Source of the DNA: Hypomesus transpacificus
Taxonomy: Eukaryota; Chordata; Actinopteri; Osmeriformes; Osmeridae
Length of the DNA stretch: 64,000 bases
Direction of reading: 5' to 3'
Assembly (NCBI RefSeq): GCF_021917145.1
Contig: NC_061067.1
Span: 1,276,154 to 1,340,153 of the forward strand
This document shows positions 15,626 through 63,167 of this stretch, one piece after another (within the stretch, counting starts at the first letter, position 1; every line of letters begins with the position of its first letter). The notes beneath the pieces are model-generated. The model was not told where the DNA came from. It was given only the letters and a program-made list of their open reading frames with translations, and ran no database searches. Position numbers and translations under genes: made by a program.

Positions 15626-15726
15626 GGTGTCTCCACTCCTTGTGCCATGCACATCCAACAGCCCTCGTTACCCTACTAAGGACAGAAAGATACAATGCAT
15701 ATCCGTTAACATGTCTACATAACATG

Positions 15727-15900
15727 TAGTCATTTAGCAGACGCTCTTATCCAGAGCGACTTACAGAAAGTACAGGGACATTCTCCCCCGAGGTGAAGTG
15801 CCTTGCCCAAGGACACACCGTCATTTGGCACGGCCGGGAATCGAACCAACAACATTCTGATTCCTAGCCTAACTCCCTAACCGCTCAGCCACCTGACCCC
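15727..15900 (-). mobile_element. tRNA-derived SINE, copy B
   Basis: Same element as at 4612 and 25930, read on the minus strand. The tRNA-like head starts at 15900 with an A box TGGCTGAGCGG and an intact B box GGTTCGATTCC. The central block follows, then the tail GAGCGTCTGCTAAATGAC at the low-coordinate end. It lies within the presumed first intron of armc1, in the same orientation as that gene. Confidence 0.9.
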
Positions 15901-24382: not shown

Positions 24383-37466
<13,084 letters not shown>

Positions 37467-41845: not shown

Positions 41846-44800
41846 ATGTCAGAGCAGAGGCAACGCACTCTGTCCACCTCAGGAGAGGCTCTCTATCTGG
41901 TTCTGGGTCTGGACAAGACCTGCTCACAGGACGACATCAAAAAGTCTTACAGGTAGTAAACACATCTACAAATGGACAATACGACGCAGCAGAATAACAT
42001 TGACTGTGTCATGAGAGAGGTGTAACCGCCAATGTCGACACAAGGAATTGACAGCGGCACGAGCATCTCTATCGGTTGACGGATTGCGAACATTACAACA
42101 ATTAGGGCTGGAGTGACCTTTTCTATGACATTTGCGATGCTCTTGAGCTCATGTGTTGCAGGTGCAATGTCACCACTGAGACTAGGCGCCGCACAGACTG
42201 TTTAATGGGGAAATGAAGTGACTGTCTGTGTCTGTTGATTGAAAGAGGTTACCTTGTTTCTGTTGACTGTTGAATGAGGTTGCTGAGGTCTGTTGTCAGT
42301 TGAAAGAGGTTGATAAGAGAACAGAGCAGACACTGAAAAGTAACAACATGAAGGATAAAACCGAAGAAGAAAAAATACTTTTGGAGAATGACTAACTGAT
42401 ACAAGTCCTTTTATAATCACAGCCAATGATTGTCTGACAGCTGCATGAATACAATATGACTTCCACAAAACTGAAATATTAATACTGCAGAGCAGATGGC
42501 AGGCCTTGTTCTGCTTAGGTCAGGCCTTATAAAAGACTCCCTCGTTTGCTGTGTGTGCCTGTTGCTGCGCTTTTTACGTTTATTTCCTTTCAACAGACCC
42601 TAAAGTACCTAACTGTGTGTGTGTGCGTGTGTCTGTTTTCCCATCCACGAGTGCTTGAAAACAAATCACACCCCCCATTGGGAATGGCATGGCCCTGTCA
42701 GCATGGCTGTAGTTCTACTTTCTATGCACACACTGCCTCTTCCTCTGCTACACAATGCAGCCGCAGGAAGATGCATCTTTACCTGGGAGATCAGCTATAA
42801 TGGAGGCCCACAGGCCCTGATGGTAGGAGTAGAATAGTGCTGCTTTTATCTGGCTGCCATGCGGTGTGTTGTTACTTGATCACCAGACAGGGTGATCTGA
42901 CCGCCAAATTTAGGAATACATTGTTGTCACACTGAGTTCTTAAGCCGTAAATGCTGTTAGTGTAATTATCTTTTCTCATAATCTATGTCTGAAGAGTTGT
43001 TTCGGGCATGAACCTAATTCCCTGCTGTATGGATTTTTTGAATCCTTGACATTCATATTTTCACTAATCTTGAGTTTTTCAGCTATCAATTCTCATCGCA
43101 TGTTCTTAAAACAAGTCACATCCTTATGGCTTAATAAAATGAATTCCTTTTCGAACTCATACACACGCCTCTACATAAGTACTCTTTAAATGATGTAATT
43201 TAAATTCACTTTTGGGACAATTCACATGGTTAGCGTTGGAGCAGCACTTGTTTGTTGTTAATGAATATGTAATCATAGCAGCAGTTCCCGAGCCGGTTGC
43301 CTTGATTAAAAATGAACGAGCATGATGCTCGTGGCATCATAAAATGTTGATGCAAACATTAGAACTTGGGGTGGAACTTAGGATGTAAAAAGATATCGCT
43401 AGAATTTGAAAACTTTTGAAAACAAATTTTAAAACAAATAAATTTTGAAAACAACCTACAAATATATGTTTATTAAATACTACAGTGTCCGTGAACTGTT
43501 GGTTTAATCCATGACAAGCAGATCTGTCTTGTCAAACTGGAGATCCCCTTCCCACTGACATATGAGCATCACTATAATACACACTCTCAGCGGTTGGTAG
43601 TTGACAAGAATTTAGGCCGTAGGAAACACATGAATCAGCCGTGATCAAGTTACCCATATCTATTCACTCTTCCAGGCCTCACTTAAACCCCTATCCCCCT
43701 TTTTGCCACTTTGAGACACCTCTACAGTTAAGTTAAACTTCTTCATTAACTAATTTGCGTTAATTCCTGCTACAATCCATTTTTTCAGAAAACTTGCGTT
43801 AAGATATCACCCGGATAAGAACCCTGAGAATCCTGATGCCACAGATAAGTTCAAGGAGCTGAATAATGCCCACTGTGTCCTGTCTGACACCACCAAGAGA
43901 AACATCTACGACAAATATGGTTCACTGGGGCTGTACGTGGCCCAGCAGTTTGGAGAGGAAAACGTCAATACATACTTCCTGCTGTCCAGTTGGTGGGCAA
44001 AGGTCTGTAGATCTCTCTCTTTCCAGATCATGTACGTGTTTCCCAATTTCTTGGCTTCAATTTGAAGATTTCACATTCATACAGCATGTATCGGACTCCC
44101 ATAACGTACACGTTTGCTCGTACACTTCTCTCCCTCCCTGTGCATCCAGGTTATAGAGGGTTGTTTTAGGCGTGAATGTTGGAACTGTGTTTTTGATCTG
44201 GCGTCCTCAGGGGTTGTTTGCAGTGTGCGGCGTGCTGACAGGCTGCTACTTCTGCTGCTGTCTGTGTTGTTGCTTCAACTGTTGCTGTGGGAAGTGTAAA
44301 CCCCACACGCCGGGAGACGACAACCCTGACAGCTACGCGTCTCCAGAAGACCTGGAAGAGCAGATACGCACAGACATGGAAACAGGTGAGTCTCACGCAC
44401 ACACGCTGAAGCTTGAATCTGGAACCACATCATGCTTGTGTGGTGAGCAAACCTGTTTAAAACATTCCAGATTCGCAGCTTCATAGTCTCAGTAACTCTT
44501 TAATAAACTCTTAATCTCAATAACTCAGCTTGCTAACACCACTGATAACACAATTTTATTTTGAATATGTGGAGTAGATACTTGAGACAGATGTTTTGCG
44601 TGTGATCCATTGTTCTGGTGCCAGTTAACAGTGGGAGGGTCTTTTCATGTTTTCTGCAGTCGTCAACATAACTAATAATTACAGTCTCTGCGTCACCTCG
44701 CTAAATGCGTTTCCATGGCAGTTATTTTGAGCCATATCTTGATAAAAGGGGAAACAATGGCTTTTGTTTCCGGCAATCACTGCAAACTAATTTGACACTA

Positions 44801-45343
44801 AATAAGCATTCAACTTCCTTTCCAAACACTTAGCTTGTGACAAATTTGTTGTTTGTGATTACTTATTTAATCTAAACCAAGAAGAATCAAAACGTTCCAA
44901 AGCAAAAAAGGGTTCTACTCAAATGGTACAATGTTTGAGTACATAATAATTAGGCACATCTTCGCACCTGTGTCTTCTTTGTAAGAGCACACTATAGGCT
45001 GAAAAAGGCTGTAACACCTGTGTAAGAAGCTAATAGATCCATATATTTCGACAAGAGATTAAGACATTACTAGACATTTTATGGACATCCGAAGGGTACT
45101 GAGATCTAACACCAACCAGGATATATGCTGGTCATCTCCTGACAAAGAAATACAGTTACAGATTCGGAGTTCAGTTTAACTCCAAAGGTACATGTATGAG
45201 GTGGACTGACAAACCCCCCAAACAACACTTCAAAAAAAGCTTGTCTCCTCTCTTCAGATGTTGACACCCCCATTATAACTCAGCCAGTCAATGCAAGTGA
45301 GAAGACCCAGCTGATTGGTGATGGACGACGCGCCTACACCTGA
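41846..45343 (+). CDS. dnajc5b: DnaJ homolog subfamily C member 5B (cysteine-string protein beta), 193 aa, four coding exons
   Basis: Exons 41846-41952, 43789-44002, 44211-44385 and 45258-45343 sum to 582 nt with phases fitting. Human DNAJC5B is 199 aa. The protein opens [20 protein letters not shown], then a J domain with HPD at residues 43-45, which activates Hsc70. A linker [20 protein letters not shown] follows, then the cysteine string (12 Cys between residues 113 and 136), which is palmitoylated to anchor CSP proteins to secretory and synaptic vesicles. Then comes [14 protein letters not shown] and a short tail. The start ATG lies inside a larger exon whose 5' end I could not fix. Intron 1 is 1.8 kb with no other gene. 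The family could also be read as dnajc5g-like, but the neighbours pde7a, trim55 and crh match human DNAJC5B. Confidence 0.92.
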
Positions 45344-45554
45344 GGAACATCATGACGAACAGAGGAATATGGAAGTGCTCCAGCTTATAAAACCTGATAA
45401 CATTTACAACTCCAGGATATTTGTAAATACGATATTTAAGTGTGTCAATCGTTACTGGACAGTTATTGTGTTTTCTGGAAATACTCAAATACAATATTCT
45501 TAATGTCGCTTAACTGGAGGTTATTATGTCTAGAAATTCATATATTTTTTCTGC

Positions 45555-45698: not shown

Positions 45699-45786
45699 TC
45701 CTTCGAGCCGGATTTGAACCAGCGACCTAAGGATTACAGTTCAGAGACTCTACAGTCCTCCGCTCTACCAACTGAGCTATCGAAGG
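45699..45786 (-). tRNA. tRNA-Tyr (GTA) with a 14-nt intron
   Basis: On the minus strand the acceptor stem CCTTCGA pairs with TCGAAGG and is followed by discriminator A. The D arm TAGCTCAGTTGGTAGAGC is an intact A box. The anticodon region reads GGACTGTAGA, then GTCTCTGAACTGTA, then ATCCTTAGG. This is the standard tRNA-Tyr layout with the intron one base 3' of the anticodon. The T arm GCTGGTTCAAATCCGGC is an intact B box. Downstream on the minus strand is a run of about 14 T (plus-strand A run at 45679-45692), a strong Pol III terminator. It is probably functional. Confidence 0.95.
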
Positions 45787-45989
45787 GGCCACATTCCAGA
45801 GGCAAAAACTTGGCAATTTAAAGTATTAAATAGTGACTTTTATATATATATCTTGTTTTAAGATCTTAACAGCGACATATTTCGATTAATCGTGAGCTAT
45901 TAAAATTCTTTCTAGTTTGTTTTGTGTTGCCATGATTACAGTTTCACAAGGGGAATTAGCGGCACCCGGAGCACATTCGACTGGCTATC

Positions 45990-46110
45990 GCGACCAATTA
46001 GCTACCTCGGTTCAAGGTTCGAGGGCCAATCGGATTCTCACTGTCCAATTGCGTCAGTCCGATTGCGCCAATCGGAACACGTACATCTCCAATTACGTCA
46101 CGCCGAGCTG
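45990..46110 (+). promoter_or_regulatory. CCAAT-cluster promoter of the DUF6729/transposase-like gene
   Basis: Five CCAAT boxes lie in about 100 bp: 45994, 46026, 46045, 46068 and 46089. Spacing is 19-32 bp. A CRE-like TACGTCA at 46094-46100 and a TGCGTCAG-type half-site near 46050 are also present. NF-Y plus CREB/ATF sites are typical of TATA-less cellular promoters. The cluster lies about 150 bp before a good splice donor (GCAAAG|GTAAAT, exon end 46257) that would close a non-coding first exon. Start sites are inferred. Confidence 0.65.
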
Positions 46111-46710
46111 AGCCGTAGCAACGGCGTCCACGACCCCAGAGACCCCCGCCGAGGTTGACCCCCGCCGAAGTTGTGAGATGAGTGACAGTAGTCGCGTCAG
46201 TTCATTCATTGAAGGATACGCTCTTTCAAGTTGTCTGTAGTACCGCGCACCGCAAAGGTAAATACATACATAGCTAATCAAAATAATTTTCCGTTTGACA
46301 TTTCAATACATGTTAGCATTCATCGGGTCAATGACAAGTAATATCACGAATATTAGAGTTTGTCATTTCAGAGTTTGTCATGTAGGCTAGTTAGTAGATT
46401 TCCTCAGGTAGTATTGCTGTCATTTAGCTAGCTACTTTTATAAGGGATTACTAATAGGTTACTGTAGCGACAGATGTTATTCCGACTAGCAAAAGCAATA
46501 TTTAACCTGTTATATATAATATATGTCACTGGGGACAAAACGAAATAAATATAACTTTTTCACTTGTGGTAATAAAGTGACCCAGAACAAGTACAAACAT
46601 ATTCTTCTGGAAATAGTAGCCAGCTAAATATTTGAAATGTTAAAAAGCTAATTATAACAATAAATACATGTTATTGTACTAGTGTAAAAATCGCTCCTTT
46701 TACCTATTAG

Positions 46711-49700
46711 ATGTCGAGTTCAAAGAGCCACAAAGGAATGGGGGATGGGGAATGGATGTCCCGTTTGAGGAGGTTTGCCAGCTCTGGGGTTTGGCCTGCT
46801 GATGCAGGCAACAGGCCAGCCCCAAGACAGAAGAGGTGGTATGACCTCTTTCAAAAGGTATATAAAATGAGCAAAAGATCACAGAAAAAAAATTCTGATG
46901 GCCTATAAAAGATGACTGAATTGCCAGAAATACCAGTCACAGTATGGGTCCTTGATAAACATAATGAACAGCAACTTCAGTGTCAATGTCATGTTTAGTC
47001 ACCAATAGAAGATATGTCAAAACGCTCCATTTCTATTGGGTTGTTTTCGTTAAAAAAGTGTTTGTTTTATTTGGAACAGATTGAGAAGTGCCCGTTACAG
47101 TCAGGGGGTCAAAGAATGCTGTTTGGTGGGACACAGCAGTGTGCTTGTGGCTTTCACAACCCAAAGGTAATGTGAATGAGACTTCTTGACACCAAAACAC
47201 TAAAAGAATCACTATGTGATGTGCTCAGTAATGTGATGTCTGACATGGATCTCTCTGTCCTTAATACAGCCAACCACTGGGCAAACTGTGGCAGAGACCT
47301 CTACCTGTGCTGCCCCTCCCCCACTGGGAACAGCCTCTACCTCAGCCTCTGCCTCTGCCCCTCCTCCACTGGGAATGGCCTCAGCCTCTGCCTCAGCCCA
47401 TGTCCCAGCACGGCCCACACTGAATTTGTCCATGGTGAGTATTTCAATATTATTGTCATACAAGCTTTCAAATATGGACAACCACTGATTACATATGATG
47501 ATGGCAAAATGGAAGAGCATTTCAGGTTTACAATGTATTCCTTTGATAAATGCTCTAATTGTCACCACAGTTTTCTAAACCACGATTTGGAGGCTCACAT
47601 GGCGCTGCTGCAAAGCCAAATGTGAATGTGGTTAGGAAAGCAAAGGTAAATATGATTATATGTAAATATAATATAATACATATTTATAGGTTAATATGAG
47701 CAAACCTACATCTTAAGAGCTTGATTTGAGTCCATTGATTTCTACTTTTTACAAATGCTTCCCCCCATCCTTCTCCCAGCCTCTGTCCAGTCCACCCACC
47801 ATGACAGGAGACACCCAGGCCACTGCCAGCTCACCCATGGCCTCTGTGAGGACCACCCCACCTGGCTTTGGTTCCCCTACAGCCTCTGTGAGGACCACCC
47901 CACCTGGCTTTGGTTCCCCTACGGCCTCTGTGAGGACCCCCCCACCTGGCTTCGGTTCCCCTATGGCCTCTGTGAGGCCCAGAACACCATCAAGCCCTGC
48001 CGTGGCTTTTGTGAGGACGGAATCACCGCTCTCAAAGCCCCCATCCACCCCCTACAAAGCCTCCATGAGGACAACTTCTCGCTCCAGCCCTGCGATGACC
48101 TCTGTGAGGCCCAGCACAGCTTCCAGCCTCAGCACTGTTGTCTCAGAGACCAGCACCAGCCCTGCAATGGCTGCTGTAAGTGTTGTGTTCTTGGAACTGT
48201 TTTAGTTTTATAAGATGAGGTTGTTCTCATATGATTGGGCTATTCTGTTTTTATAAATATATTTATTTCTCTTGTTTTGTAACAGGATGTGCATGATGAG
48301 GATGAGCTTGCTGCTCCTGGCCCTGCTCCTGGTCCAACTCCTGACTTCTGGCTTCCTGTCAGAATGAAGGAGACGATCCCAGTTCAGGACCAACGGTGGA
48401 TTGCGTCCACCCTTTTTCAGTCTGGCAAGCTGCGTTTGAACTTGAAGCTCTGGTATGAGCCACCAGCCTCTGCCCTGATATACCACCAGGCTCCAACACC
48501 GGACCGCTTTTTTGCCCACAGGCTCTTGGTATGGATGCCCTATCACTTGTGGAAAGTGAGGGTAGTCTGCCAAACCTGTGGGAAGCAGCTGACGGGGTAT
48601 GGTGTGCACAAGAGGGTGCGTAAGGTCCTGGACGTGGACCGCTACTACCTGATGGTGACGGAGACACTCAGGTGCACTGTGTGTCGCCTGACCCATCTGG
48701 CAACCAGTCAGGCTGTCCTGGACCAGCTGGACCTGCCTCACAGGAGGAAGTTCAGGATGATCCTGACACGCTTGTGAGTTAAAAATCTACAATCATTTTC
48801 TGATAATGCCTGCTGCAGGTCCTTACATAATTGAACAAGTTCTTGAAACTTATCTGTCTTTTCTTCAAGGTATGCTTGTGACATACGGGTCATCCGCATG
48901 TTGCGGGAACGGACCCTCGGCAATAGCCCGGCGTGCCTGGTGAAGCAGCTGCGGGAGAACCATGGGGAGGAGTGGTTGGACCGCCTGGCCGACTACTTGG
49001 GGGAGTGTGCGGCCTTCGTTGACCAGCCCAGCCTCTTCCCAGTGACCTGCCAGGAACCTCCACAGCCCCTCGATGTCCCAACCAGCCGGTGGGTGCTGTC
49101 GGTGTACGGCAGGGACATCATCAGCCGGATGGACCATATAAAGGCGTCCATCACGTCAACCTTTGGTAACATTTTGAAGATGGACTCCACCAAAAAGGTA
49201 ATAGGATGAAGAAAATCCATAGTGTAAATTATGTACAACACAATGAAAACATGAAACCTCAATGATTTGTATTCTTACAAGCACACATACACACACACAT
49301 CCATGCCTTTGATTAGACTGCAGTAATACATGAATAAATAAATACACTTCTGTGTTTATTTAACAGACTTTCTTTTGAAACCTCTCATGAAGTTTTTTGT
49401 GTGAATTTTGTCATTTCAGATGACAAAGAAGCTGGCTGGTGCAGCAAAGGGCACTGCATTCTGGGTGACCTCGGTGGGGAATGAGATCGGCCAGGTCCTC
49501 ATCAGTGTCCTGACTGCCCAGGAGGGACCGGGGCTGGACCCGATGGTCTCTGGCCTCATTGAGAGGTACACCCAGGCAGGTGCAGCTCCCCCGGTCCTGC
49601 TCTATGTGGACTGTGGCTGCTGCTCAGAGGAGGGGGAGACCAAGCTTCAGGCCAGGTTTGGTGGGTGGCCTGACCTGAAAATAAGGCTGGACATCTGGCA

Positions 49701-52672
49701 TTTTATGCGACGGCTGGCCGTGGGATGCACCACCGATGCCCATGCCCTGTACCCCCTCTTCATGAGCCGCCTGTCTGTGTGCCTGTTCGAGTGGGACGCA
49801 GCAGACGTAGCCCTACTGCGAAGGGTGAAGAGGGAGCAGCTCAAAAGGGAGGGTGTGCCCCTCATCACCAGTGACATGGTGGACAAGGCCATCACCAAGG
49901 CTGAGCTGTCCCAGTTCTGCAGGCGGAGGACACGTGGAGTGGACGCCACGGTCCTCCGCATTGAGCAGCTGCTGCAGGAGCTGATGGGGGAGAAGGGGAG
50001 AGACCTGCTCGGGGTTCCGCTGCTGGACCAGCCTAAGATGGAGCACATCTGGCGCACCCAGAAGAGGCACGTGAAGTGCATCCAGGATGTGCCAGGTGTA
50101 CTCCTGTACACTGAGACAGGCAGTTCCACCAGGGAGGGGATCCAGCTGACCACATACAGGTGTGCAAGAGGCTCCACCTCCTTGGAGTCCTTCCACTGCC
50201 ACCTGAACAGGTTTATTCCAGGTTGGTGTAGATCTTCATCTAAACATTATTCTTAATAATGAAATTATATTCAAATAGCCTTATTAATCATTGTTCACGT
50301 TCTCTCTTTTTTTTTAGGAACGAGTGCAAACCTGCTCAACTTCCAGCTGTACCTCCTGGAAGGCCTGAACAGGTGGAACCAGAACCGGGCAGCGGCCTCC
50401 ATCACCACCAAGCGCATGGCGCTGTTGACGTACGCGGGGGACGTGCTGGAGTCCGTCAACAGCAACAGCCTGAAGGTGTTTGGAAGGAAGTATGTCCCCT
50501 CCTTCATCCCGCCGAGAAAGTACACCGGTAAGTCTCAGGGCAAATATGAATAGAAATAATGATGTTGTTGAGAGCTCAGTATTTATGCATCATGGTAAGT
50601 TCCATATCTGTTTTTTAATACTCATTAGCATTGCATTGTTGTTCATGTTCAGGAGAGTTGCTTGGGGTGAACTACCTGCTTAGGCAGACAGGGCAGCCCT
50701 TGCAGGACATGGACCCCGACTCTGAGGAAACAGACCAACTGCTGGAGGACCACGCCACAGAGGAGGAACAGGCGGATGAAGGGTTTGAGGATGACGAACA
50801 GGACCTCACTATTGGTAGTGTTTCGGAAGACCTCCCGTCTTCCGCCCTGCCTTCCACCACCCTGCCTGTGGTCCCCACCCTGCCCCTCACCTCCTCCACC
50901 CTGCCTTCCACCACCCTGCCTGTGGTCCCCACCCTGCCCCTCACCTCCTCCACCCTGCCTTCCACCACCCTGCCTGTGGTCCCCACCGTGCCCCTCACCT
51001 CCTCCACCCTGCCTTCTAACACCCTGCCACTCACCTCCTCCACCCTGCCTTCCACCACCTTGTCTCTAACCACCTCCATCCTACCTGTCACCACCACCAC
51101 TCTGCCTGTCACCCCCATGCCTGTAGCTACCACCCTGCCTCCCCCCATAACCCAGCCTTGTGTCCCAGGTGCCTCCTCACAGGTGCCTGAAGAACAGCTG
51201 GTATGTTAACTTTCTACTAGTAATTAACTGTCATTCATAGAAACTAACAAGTTCAGTAGTTAGGAAAGTGTCTGAATACAAGCGCAATTCATTATTAGGA
51301 ACAACACACAGTAATTGACAGCAAACAAATAAAACACACAGCAGCAGCAGTCAATATAACATACCTTTGCCATGAGGTGTTCAGCGCTAATGTGAAATTG
51401 TTCAATGTTTCAGGCTGTGGACGAGCATGGCATGCCAGGCATGGATCGGGTGGATAGACTGGCAGAGTGCTTAGTGGAGCTGAGGCATCAGACCAACATG
51501 ACCCTCGATAACCAGCAGGTCAGCAAGACATTCATTGTACAACAGATATTTGTTTATATATTTATAATATATAAACATATAAAATATATGTTTTCTTTCC
51601 TTCTTAGGTCAGCAACATTGTGGGGCTGTGGCAAGACCTGCTGGATTACGACAAGCAGAGGGTCGTGTTTGCTGCGCGGCATCTGGACAGGCTGATAAAG
51701 GGAAGGTTCCGCCACAAAAAAAAGGTGGAGTTCACGCCAGGTGTGGAGAGTGTGGAGAGGTGTGTCCTGGGGTCCACTGGTTCGCCTGCTCAGTGGCCAG
51801 ACTGCTGCCGCCTTGTGGAGGCCATCTTTGTCCGGCTCTCGGACATCCATAAGAGTCCCAGGAAGCAGGGGAAGAGCAGCATGTCCAGGTGGACTCTGAT
51901 CCTGCAGGACTACCGCAAGGTCCGGCAGCTCATCCTGGGCAATGGGGCCATCATGCAGGGCACCACCCTGCAGCTGGTGGAGGTGAACCAGTCGACCCTC
52001 TCCCAGTGGTACAACCGGAGGGTGAAGAGGCAGGATCTGGCTGTGCTGCAGCAGGGCATAAACTTGCCAGGTCCTCTGTCTGTGGCTACCGAGCCTCTCC
52101 CGCCTGCCAACGTCCGCCCTGCTGTTGCTCCACCTCAACCCCAGGGAGCATCCCACACCTACCACCTGCCGCAGAGCACAGCAGGGCAGGCAAAGACCAA
52201 GAGGCGGGCAACATATGCAGCCACAGCACCACCTCCAGCGGTCCGACCCAGGCTGGCAGCCCAGAGGCAGCTCTTCCCTGGCCCTTCAGCCGCCCTTGGA
52301 GCCCCCACTCCCATCCCTATCATGCCCCGCCCTACCATCATTGCCCCTCGCCCTGCTGCCGTCCCCACTGTGGTGTTTGTCTCCCGAGCCCCTGGTATGA
52401 GGGCACCCTCTGCCCCCTCTCCATTGATGGTCCCCCAAGCCCTGCGTTTTGTCCCACCCTCTTCCTGCACCACCCACCTTCCCCAGCTTCGTCCTGCTCC
52501 TGGTCCAGCTCCCCGTGCCCACCAGAGGAGAGTGGAGGCCAACAAATGCTGGAGGTGTGGCCAGAACAGAACGGCAGAGACTGGCCACAGCCAGTATAAG
52601 GGGACTGTTTACTGCCCCTCTGCAGAGACTCTGTCCAGAGAGCAGTGGCTAGAGGAGCAAAAAAATAAATAA
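46711..52672 (+). CDS. Intact transposase-like protein with DUF6729-type Cys domain, 1,471 aa, 12 coding exons
   Basis: Exons: 46711-46857, 47080-47166, 47270-47434, 47571-47645, 47780-48175, 48286-48773, 48870-49197, 49420-50221, 50318-50527, 50653-51200, 51414-51518 and 51608-52672. All borders are GT-AG and the sum is 4,416 nt with no stop. Residues 1-78 are a small N-terminal module (C53, C70, C72). Residues 80-290 are a low-complexity Ser/Pro/Ala/Thr linker. About 315-540 resembles Pfam DUF6729 (FFAHRLLVWMPYHLWK; C385-x2-C388, C420-x2-C423; CDIRVIRMLRERTLGNSP). About 540-900 looks like an RNase-H-type transposase core: D558 in KMDSTKK, D626 in LLYVDCGCC, then LDIWHFMRRL, and E818 in GSTSLESFHCHLNRFIPG. 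A Ser/Thr/Pro minisatellite linker follows, then a basic HTH-like block (GLWQDLLDYDKQR) and a C-terminal knuckle C1431-x2-C1434-x9-H1444-x8-C1453. From memory this is a multi-copy fish family; Kolobok, KDZ or another superfamily is unresolved. It is a complete transposon gene or a domesticated one. Confidence 0.88.
47840..47980 (+). repeat. Coding 42-bp minisatellite (SVRTTPPGFGSPTA units)
   Basis: Three nearly identical 42-bp units (47840-47881, 47882-47923, 47924-47965), then a partial fourth, all in frame within exon 47780-48175. Each adds 14 residues. Confidence 0.95.
50850..51011 (+). repeat. Coding 54-bp minisatellite (STTLPVVPTLPLTSSTLP units)
   Basis: Three 54-bp units (starts 50850, 50904, 50958), followed by shorter degenerate copies to about 51140, in frame within exon 50653-51200. 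It encodes a Thr/Pro/Ser-rich linker. Confidence 0.95.
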
Positions 52673-52687
52673 TTCTTTGGGCCTTTG

Positions 52688-52813
52688 TATATAGTTTTCA
52701 TTGTTTAGATATAGTTAATGCTTAGATTTCCCGTGTGTATATCGTTTTCATTGTTTAGATATAGTTTATGCTTAGATTTCCATTGTGTATATAGTTTTCA
52801 TTGTGTAAATATT
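52688..52813 (+). repeat. 50-bp tandem repeat just after the transposase-like ORF
   Basis: Two full units (52688-52737 and 52738-52787) plus about half of a third, beginning TATATAGTTTTCATTG. It starts 15 bp after the stop codon, so it is in the 3' UTR or at the element edge. Confidence 0.93.
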
Positions 52814-59493
<6,680 letters not shown>

Positions 59494-62151: not shown

Positions 62152-62652
62152 TTATTTTCCGAAGATCTCCATCATTTTTCTGTTGTTATGCGCTTGTTGG
62201 GCTAACTGTTCGGCTCTGGACATTTCCATCATCTCTCGGAGCAGGTGGAACGTCAGATCCAGCGATATCGGCGGGTCCTCGGATCTTCTCTCCCTCTCCA
62301 TCGAGTCGTCGAGTTGGTTTGCTAAACCGCTGATGGGCCGGTTGATGTTCCCAACTTTGCCTTGTAGAAGACGCTGCGTCAGTTGGAGTTGTAAGGCTCT
62401 GTTGTAGATTGCCGGTGATCCCTCGGAGAACATTTTCGACGCGGTCCCAGCTGAGTTTGGGTTCCTGTTTCCCATCCGGATGAAGTTTTCCTCTCCTACA
62501 CGAGCTAGGATGGGAAGAGATTGATGCTGAGGGTCGGTCTGCGGCGCCAGCGCGCGCTGGATAGCGCCAGGGCTTTCAACAGCCCTACATTCATAGCGTG
62601 GTAAGAAGGCAACGAGCAGAACCACGGTGGTGACAAATAAATTGAGCTTCAT
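62152..62652 (-). CDS. crh: Corticotropin-releasing hormone precursor, 166 aa
   Basis: A single coding exon, as in other vertebrate CRH genes. The ATG at 62652 lies 20 bp inside an exon starting at 62672 (acceptor TTTCTTTCTCAG). Residues 1-24 form a signal peptide (MKLNLFVTTVVLLVAFLPRY...). The cryptic middle region is followed by the RERR cleavage site at 120-123. The 41-residue hormone spans 124-164, starting SEDPPISLDLTFHLLREMME and ending MMEIF, followed by GK, which supplies the C-terminal amide. CRH is the hypothalamic neuropeptide that drives pituitary ACTH release. Teleosts have crha and crhb paralogues, and I cannot say with certainty which this is; residues EMMEMS and HNN differ from the EVLEMA and HSN form that I recall for cyprinid crhb. 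The gene neighbourhood matches human CRH. Confidence 0.97.
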   Translation of the reverse strand: MKLNLFVTTVVLLVAFLPRYECRAVESPGAIQRALAPQTDPQHQSLPILARVGEENFIRMGNRNPNSAGTASKMFSEGSPAIYNRALQLQLTQRLLQGKVGNINRPISGLANQLDDSMERERRSEDPPISLDLTFHLLREMMEMSRAEQLAQQAHNNRKMMEIFGK

Positions 62653-63167
62653 GTCAGAGGATCAACAGGAATCTGAGAAAGAAAAGAGTGAATTAACTTC
62701 ACCTTTTGTCGCCATTACTATAATTACTTTAAAGTTATCAATTTTCAAAATGCGCACCCAGGCATTTTCACATGGATTTTGACCATTTTATGCACAGAAG
62801 CATTTTGGTATGGCGAAGTTGCATGAAACACTGTAATACATTTCATAAAAAGTTTCAATGAGGACTAATAGTTCCTGTCTCTTGTCCATGGTCACACAAG
62901 AAATGTAGCCTACTAGAATAACAGACTAAATCTTAGGTCTATGTAAAGTAATCCATTTAAGGGTCCATAAATCCAGGATTTGGTGAAACGTCCACAAAAG
63001 CAAATCGACATAATGACCACTTATGCTCTATTTCCAGGAGAGAGAATATATCCATTAAGTTATTGTAATGCAAGAAGGTATGAACATATCTTATGACACC
63101 TGTCTGCACAATAAAAATAAGTAAATATGAAGCGCGAGGGGACTGAATCAAGTAGAACTAGTCTCAC

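Follow-up and report, generated by a model that had tools for sequence, protein, structure and literature searches.

The stretch of Hypomesus transpacificus DNA analysed here (64,000 nt of contig NC_061067.1, positions 1,276,154–1,340,153 of the forward strand; hereafter the window) carries a 12-exon gene at 46711–52672 that is, on its motifs, ends and target site, very probably the transposase gene of an intact, recently inserted DNA transposon of the Dada superfamily. The element interrupts a transfer RNA (tRNA) gene, tRNA-Ala(AGC), at nucleotides 8–13, and has the orientation of that gene. Dada elements have been described as encoding a DDE transposase with DxxH, CCCC and C-terminal CCHC motifs, mostly from intron-containing genes, and as inserting in small-RNA genes with duplications of 6–7 bp and sub-terminal inverted repeats (PMC8869645, and PMC3706591 in its available part). 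The features of the window element and its gene are as follows.

46711–52672, forward: transposase gene, 12 coding exons, 1,471 residues plus stop, frame open in 19 of 22 copies
46711-46857, 47080-47166, 47270-47434, 47571-47645, 47780-48175, 48286-48773, forward: exons 1–6
48870-49197, 49420-50221, 50318-50527, 50653-51200, 51414-51518, 51608-52672, forward: exons 7–12
48337–49122 (approximate), forward: DUF6729 region, residues 318–537 in exons 6–7 (Pfam; span from residue positions and the exon table)
49183–50361 (approximate), forward: predicted catalytic core, with D558, D626, D653xxH656 and E844
52547–52615, forward: C-terminal CCHC knuckle in exon 12 (C1431, C1434, H1444, C1453; span computed from residue positions)
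45963–53698, forward: predicted Dada transposon, 7,736 bp between the hexamers (ends from the split tRNA and the shared ends of other copies)
45950–45956, forward: first 7 nt of tRNA-Ala(AGC), giving with 53699 onward a 73-nt tRNA by ARAGORN
45957–45962, forward: left hexamer TAGCGG, apparent target-site duplication (TAGCTC at this place in intact tRNA-Ala genes)
53699–53704, forward: right hexamer TAGCGG
53705–53764, forward: remainder of tRNA-Ala(AGC), nucleotides 14–73
45973–45983, forward: left arm of the sub-terminal inverted repeat, positions 11–21 from the end, matching the right arm at 9 of 11 bases
53678–53688, reverse: right arm of the same repeat, positions 11–21 from the end
45699–45786, reverse: intact tRNA-Tyr(GTA), a neighbour outside the element (ARAGORN, Rfam)

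The transposase gene and the ends of the element

The 12-exon transposase gene was confirmed as real and intact. Its joined exons amount to 4,416 nt (1,471 codons and a stop) without an internal stop, and GT–AG borders are present at all 11 introns, reproducing an earlier note on this DNA that had joined the 12 exons in phase. The two alternative frames of the spliced sequence contain 59 and 37 stops, and shuffles of the joined coding sequence (n = 200) gave a mean of 46 stops and a minimum of 29. The junction of exons 11 and 12 is common to the protein models P0241 (H. transpacificus) and P0360 (Osmerus eperlanus), and the closest relative of exon 12 is LOC124465932 of H. transpacificus (384/390 residues). 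P0360 (LOC134013581) shows ~97% identity in exons 11–12, and both ends of this model are out of frame. The earlier note had described the gene as transposase-like and intact, hence recent or under selection, with which the open frame and the near-identical copies described below agree; it covered, however, the coding span only, whereas the whole unit extends over 45963–53698 with its flanking hexamers, and it lacked the decisive context, a split tRNA-Ala gene with a hexamer repeated at both ends.

DUF6729, the domain that a Pfam check had been expected to find, is the sole significant Pfam domain of the transposase (E-value, 2.4e-86), DUF6431 remaining below the cut-off (E-value, 0.063). The DUF6729 region includes a CCCC zinc motif (C385, C388, C420, and C423). 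The predicted catalytic residues form a DDE triad with a DxxH motif after the second D, in which D558 is encoded by exon 7, D626 and D653xxH656 by exon 8, and E844 by exon 9. Among the best 120 of the 277 homologues found, D558 is conserved in 106, D626 in 114, D653 in 119 and H656 in 114, and the column of E844 holds E in 102 and D in 15; the zinc columns are conserved in 110–113 (CCCC) and 78–84 (CCHC), the remainder being mostly gaps. The fold of the catalytic core was matched by Foldseek to the ISCth4 transposase, presumably of the IS256 family, which stands together with Hermes (hAT) among the nearest known systems, and a sequence-profile search of the PDB gave a single match (E-value, 0.2). 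A DNA-binding fold considered for exon 12 was not supported (predicted local distance difference test score of the model, 63.8; best PDB match, E-value of only 1.2). In the domain order proposed earlier, DUF6729, the transposase core and the C-terminal Cys/His knuckle were confirmed; the helix-turn-helix-like block was not, as the exon-12 model is of low confidence and without a fold match. That order had been noted as one without a described function, but the protein agrees with published Dada transposases in both architecture and motif spacing.

At the ends of the element, the left hexamer is preceded by GGGGAAT and the right hexamer is followed by the rest of the tRNA. When the flanks are joined with one hexamer, ARAGORN recognises a 73-nt tRNA-Ala(AGC), the acceptor stem of which pairs across the junction. 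The inverted repeats are sub-terminal and not terminal: no inverted 8-mer is common to the outermost 250 bp of the two ends, and an 11-bp inverted repeat lies 10 bases inside each end, at equal distance from the hexamers, with a 9/11 match that was reached by 48 of 20,000 random in-register pairs. For Dada-U6, a repeat that matches the target has been published; here the corresponding match, to the tRNA, was weak (237/20,000 random). If the flanking repeat were read as 7 bp, TTAGCGG, the arms of the inverted repeat would be shifted one base out of register. In the 3' region of the element, a tRNA-like stretch (53420–53475, reverse strand) appears B-box-like by eye and has no ARAGORN or Rfam call. 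The tRNA-Tyr gene is located ~160 bp upstream of the split tRNA-Ala, on the opposite strand.

Copies of the element, their age and the Dallia locus

A search of the smelt genome with the element gave at least 30 matches, of which 21 (the window included) cover the query wholly or nearly, and a search with its left end gave at least 27. Of the 26 matching stretches retrieved, 22 were compared with the window element. Five copies, L009 and L014 (both C97), L010 (C51), L011 (C20), and L012 (C10), differ from it by 3–5 substitutions over 7,682 bp, and the divergence of L013, L015–L025, L027, and L030 is 0.08–0.46%. L026, with its left end missing, diverges by 2.4%; for L028 (6.6%) and L029 (8.7%), both incomplete, the figures derive partly from poorly aligned ends. 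Contig C366 holds a partial copy. Frameshifts, stops and splice defects are absent in 19 of the 22 copies aligned to the window exon model; L019 has one 1-bp insertion, and the incomplete L028 and L029 are not judgeable as wholes. Exon lengths differ among the copies by in-frame changes of tandem repeats in exon 5 (42-bp units), exon 6 (12 bp), and exon 10 (54 bp), with at least one extra 54-bp unit of exon 10 in the window relative to every other copy compared.

Judged from the unique codon variants of 20 copies and the window, the copies show purifying selection: 14 variants are non-synonymous and 19 synonymous, against 71% non-synonymous expected under the substitution model (P = 0.0007, an approximate value, given the relatedness of the copies and possible sequence exchange among them). 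No variation was found at the catalytic or zinc residues across the same set. Mutation rates are assumed to lie between 1e-9 and 6e-9 per site and year, at which 3–5 differences over 7,682 bp correspond to about 0.03–0.33 million years; gene conversion would make the copies look younger. Two further age bounds were set aside, one from the intact frame under neutrality (1.0–5.7 million years), which rests on assumed mutation rates, and one from the tRNA halves (6.3–38 million years), which requires assumed rates and unchanged halves, and is doubtful because the array tRNA differs from that of the window at one place outside the hexamer.

Since the family is multi-copy and near-identical with open frames, the element is, as read from sequence, recently mobile and not domesticated. 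The earlier note had reasoned that multiple copies would mean a live mobile element, which the genome matches and the five closest copies bear out, and that a single conserved copy would mean domestication, which the multi-copy family leaves unsupported.

The element lies between a complete dnajc5g-like gene (193 residues, four exons; 41846–45345, forward) and RING/TRIM exons (54927–55541, forward), and a domesticated host gene, descended from an ancient Dada insertion at this dnajc5g–TRIM locus and shared with Dallia pectoralis, has to be weighed. In the D. pectoralis gene model P0004, dnajc5g, Dada transposase and TRIM parts follow one another as they do in the window; this model is the nearest full core among the best 120 homologues (85.3% of 565 residues; sister support, 1.0), and the dnajc5g parts of the window and Dallia are equally diverged (160/188). 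The intact frame and the constrained codon variants would also fit a host gene. However, 3–5 differences per 7,682 bp from copies on other contigs are far too few for an insertion shared by Osmeriformes and Esociformes, and P0004, unlike the window, carries A in place of the first catalytic D and is devoid of the DxxH segment (a gap that an error in the gene model may explain). In addition, no other protein among the best 120 homologues exceeds 81% core identity, the next being P0003 with 80.1%. Domestication is accordingly regarded as extremely improbable; because the smelt copy is recent, Osmeriformes and Esociformes probably took separate Dada insertions at the dnajc5g–TRIM locus. Horizontal transfer between the smelt and Dallia lineages is not needed, the cores of far older fish lineages being still 74–77% identical, though it may have occurred. 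Passive spread, in which tRNA array units already holding the element were duplicated without recent transposition, would suit the many copies in the C97, C19, and C12 arrays with their near-identical array flanks, but the near-identical copies that also occur on C8, C10, C20, and C291 have unrelated flanks and occupy three kinds of tRNA gene, for which transposition is needed. Such spread on its own is very improbable; array-unit duplication may account for part of the array copies, and is excluded as the sole cause.

Target sites and the flanking hexamer

The copies are found mostly at one site of one kind of gene. Insertions at nucleotides 8–13 of tRNA-Ala comprise the window and copies on C97, C19, C12, C51, and C10, and one insertion each was found in a tRNA-Asn and a tRNA-Thr gene. 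C97 carries a tandem tRNA-Ala(AGC) array with a spacing of some 670–695 bp, and C291 a tandem tRNA-Thr(TGT) array with a spacing of mostly some 520 bp. The stretches L037–L041 show such long tandem arrays of tRNA-Ala (accompanied by some tRNA-Ile on the opposite strand) and of tRNA-Thr. Intact tRNA-Ala genes have TAGCTC at nucleotides 8–13 in 31 of 31 cases (30 in three stretches of C97, and one on C51), so that an excision footprint, that is, an intact tRNA-Ala with TAGCGG, was seen in 0/31 in the genome stretches examined.

In the tRNA-Ala insertions, the left hexamer is TAGCGG in 19/19 (window, L009, L010, L012, L014–L021, L023–L025, L027, L028, L031, and L036). The right hexamer is TAGCTC in 11 (L012, L016–L019, L023–L026, L029, and L034) and TAGCGG in eight (window, L009, L010, L014, L020, L021, L027, and L031); the 16 copies with both ends are divided equally into TAGCGG/TAGCGG and TAGCGG/TAGCTC. 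These counts are not independent, since duplication of array units may have produced many of the array copies from a single event.

Outside tRNA-Ala, the copy in tRNA-Asn (L011) reads GTCTCTG-TAGCGG-element-TGGCGC, its left hexamer being that of the tRNA-Ala copies and foreign to the target. The copy in tRNA-Thr (L022) reads GGTGCTG-TGGCGG-element-TAGCGG-TTAGCTGG, whereas 7/9 of the neighbouring tRNA-Thr units read GGTGCTG-TGGCTT-AGCTGG (of the other two, one differs by a single change and the other has a rearranged start); here, contrary to the left-side rule, the Ala-type hexamer stands on the right, with two additional bases left over. In L030 (C7), TAGCGG borders the left end, no tRNA is present, and the right side lacks a repeat. 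Because L011, L022, and L030 differ from the window by only 4, 13, and 8 substitutions, respectively, chance mutation accounts poorly for the matching foreign hexamer, and the copies in tRNA-Asn, tRNA-Thr and the non-tRNA site are taken as direct evidence of a moving flanking hexamer. The right flank of L033 is likewise without a tRNA. L032 (C191:12799-18874) is internally deleted and has TTGCGG on both sides within degenerate tRNA-like sequence without an ARAGORN call. The tandem pair L015/L013 (C12:5314101-5329808) is joined by TGGCCG, the published target of Dada-tS (PMC8869645); the right end of the element in this pair is CAGCCC, in contrast to CAGCTT elsewhere. An older relative, L035 (C22:5552380-5552700), has 70% identity at the left end, TAGTGG as its left bases, and no tRNA by eye.

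For Dada-tA, the target hexamer has been reported as replaced "by an unknown mechanism" in the available text of PMC3706591, and transposition of the original flanking sequence with the element has been speculated upon, the replacement being frequently two-sided and occasionally one-sided (PMC8869645). A left-side bias of the replacement was not found in the available text of either paper, Figure S2 aside. In the mechanism that we propose, the transposase would bind the short sub-terminal inverted repeats, excise the element, and join it into the A box of a tRNA gene (nucleotides 8–13), which in this smelt is mostly that of tRNA-Ala(AGC), also in tandem arrays, where the loss of one gene should cost little. 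On leaving the donor site, the element would take a flanking hexamer with it, for instance through cleavage six bases beyond its left end, and the carried hexamer would be sealed into the new site. Whether Dada makes no ordinary target-site duplication, but carries along a donor hexamer, mostly the left one, is in our judgement evenly balanced. If it does, each copy would bear in its flank a record of where it came from, with either the target's own or a carried hexamer on the right side, and the published puzzle of target replacement would be answered.

Alternatively, no hexamer is carried, GG being the left end of the element and the true duplication the 4-bp TAGC. Such an arrangement explains the eight TAGCGG/TAGCTC tRNA-Ala copies without any replacement, and the left ends of the close copies all end in GG except at the tandem junction TGGCCG. 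It leaves unexplained, however, the eight copies with TAGCGG on the right, the tRNA-Asn copy with its unlike hexamers, and the right TAGCGG of the tRNA-Thr copy, which lies among units with TGGCTT; a 4-bp duplication is therefore thought unlikely, though it keeps an appreciable chance beside the carry-over model.

Assignment to Dada and comparison with known systems

Several points weigh against the assignment to Dada and the reading of the ends. The membership is based on motifs, spacing, target and ends, with named Dada proteins outside the alignment, and the Foldseek superposition of the whole model was poor (template modelling scores, 0.19/0.38). The test of the inverted repeat was post hoc, and without the register condition shuffles also reach 9/11, so that the repeat counts as supporting evidence only. 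The left and right hexamers differ in 8/16 tRNA-Ala copies, leaving exact duplication in only 8/16, although unequal hexamers are also of a published kind for Dada insertions (PMC8869645). Finally, both movement and splicing are predicted here from DNA and protein sequence.

The fish DUF6729 proteins in public databases are probably Dada transposases, a link that is not printed under that name in the literature searched. P0116, P0068, and P0077, which carry DUF6729, are named leptin receptor-like or surface protein bspA-like, or have dehydrogenase domains, and probably result from annotation that fused host genes to Dada copies. Elsewhere in the window, a single-exon gene on the reverse strand (62155–62661) encodes a corticotropin-releasing hormone b precursor, with identities to named relatives of at most 80% (Salmo), 74% (Esox), and 70% (Dallia), and of 93% and 99% to two transcript sequences, and two UnaL2 elements (Rfam), 3' elements of long interspersed nuclear elements, lie at 15724–15777 and 25939–25992 (reverse strand).

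Dada is one of the few DNA transposons with a strict choice of target, and near-identical copies with intact frames and intact adjacent target genes are good material for the study of how it finds tRNA genes. The tRNA-Asn and tRNA-Thr copies with the tRNA-Ala hexamer turn the published replacement puzzle into a testable question of the donor cut site. As far as the text of the papers shows, the family, the host order Osmeriformes and nucleotides 8–13 of tRNA-Ala as the main target are new: Osmeriformes are absent from Table 1 and the available main text of PMC8869645, where tRNA-Ala is listed with TAGCTC but the types reported as inserted there are Lys, Phe, and Tyr.

In comparison with zebrafish Dada-U6_DR, as given in the available part of PMC3706591, the window transposase has the same D–D distance (68), distance from the last Cys of CCCC to the first D (135), and CCHC spacing (3/10/9), whereas the D–E distance is 218 instead of 176 and the first Cys–Cys distance 3 instead of 5. 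Both genes are intron-rich (12 exons and 1,471 residues here; 11 exons and 1,402 residues in Dada-U6_DR), and both elements have short sub-terminal and no terminal inverted repeats. The target of Dada-U6_DR is, however, the U6 small nuclear RNA, and its repeats, of 9 bp and another sequence, match that target, unlike the weak match seen here. Closer in target are Dada-tY, -tK, -tN, -tR, and -tS (PMC8869645), which share the tRNA site (A box, nucleotides 8–13), the TAGCTC target class and the 6-bp hexamers, and among which Dada-tY_CaAu shows a likewise replaced hexamer (TAGCTC by TGGCGG); they differ from the window family (TAGCGG, tRNA-Ala(AGC)) in hexamer and main target. Dada-tA also resides in tRNA-Ala genes with a replaced target hexamer, but it is inserted around the anticodon and in the opposite orientation (PMC8869645 and the available part of PMC3706591), neither of which applies to the window element. 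The domesticated dDada of Cyprinoidei is, like the window transposase, a Dada-derived protein (PMC8869645); its D residues are mutated, it carries DxxQ, and it occupies a single orthologous locus. None of these traits was found for the window transposase, whose residues are intact, as in all 20 copies examined, and whose family is multi-copy.
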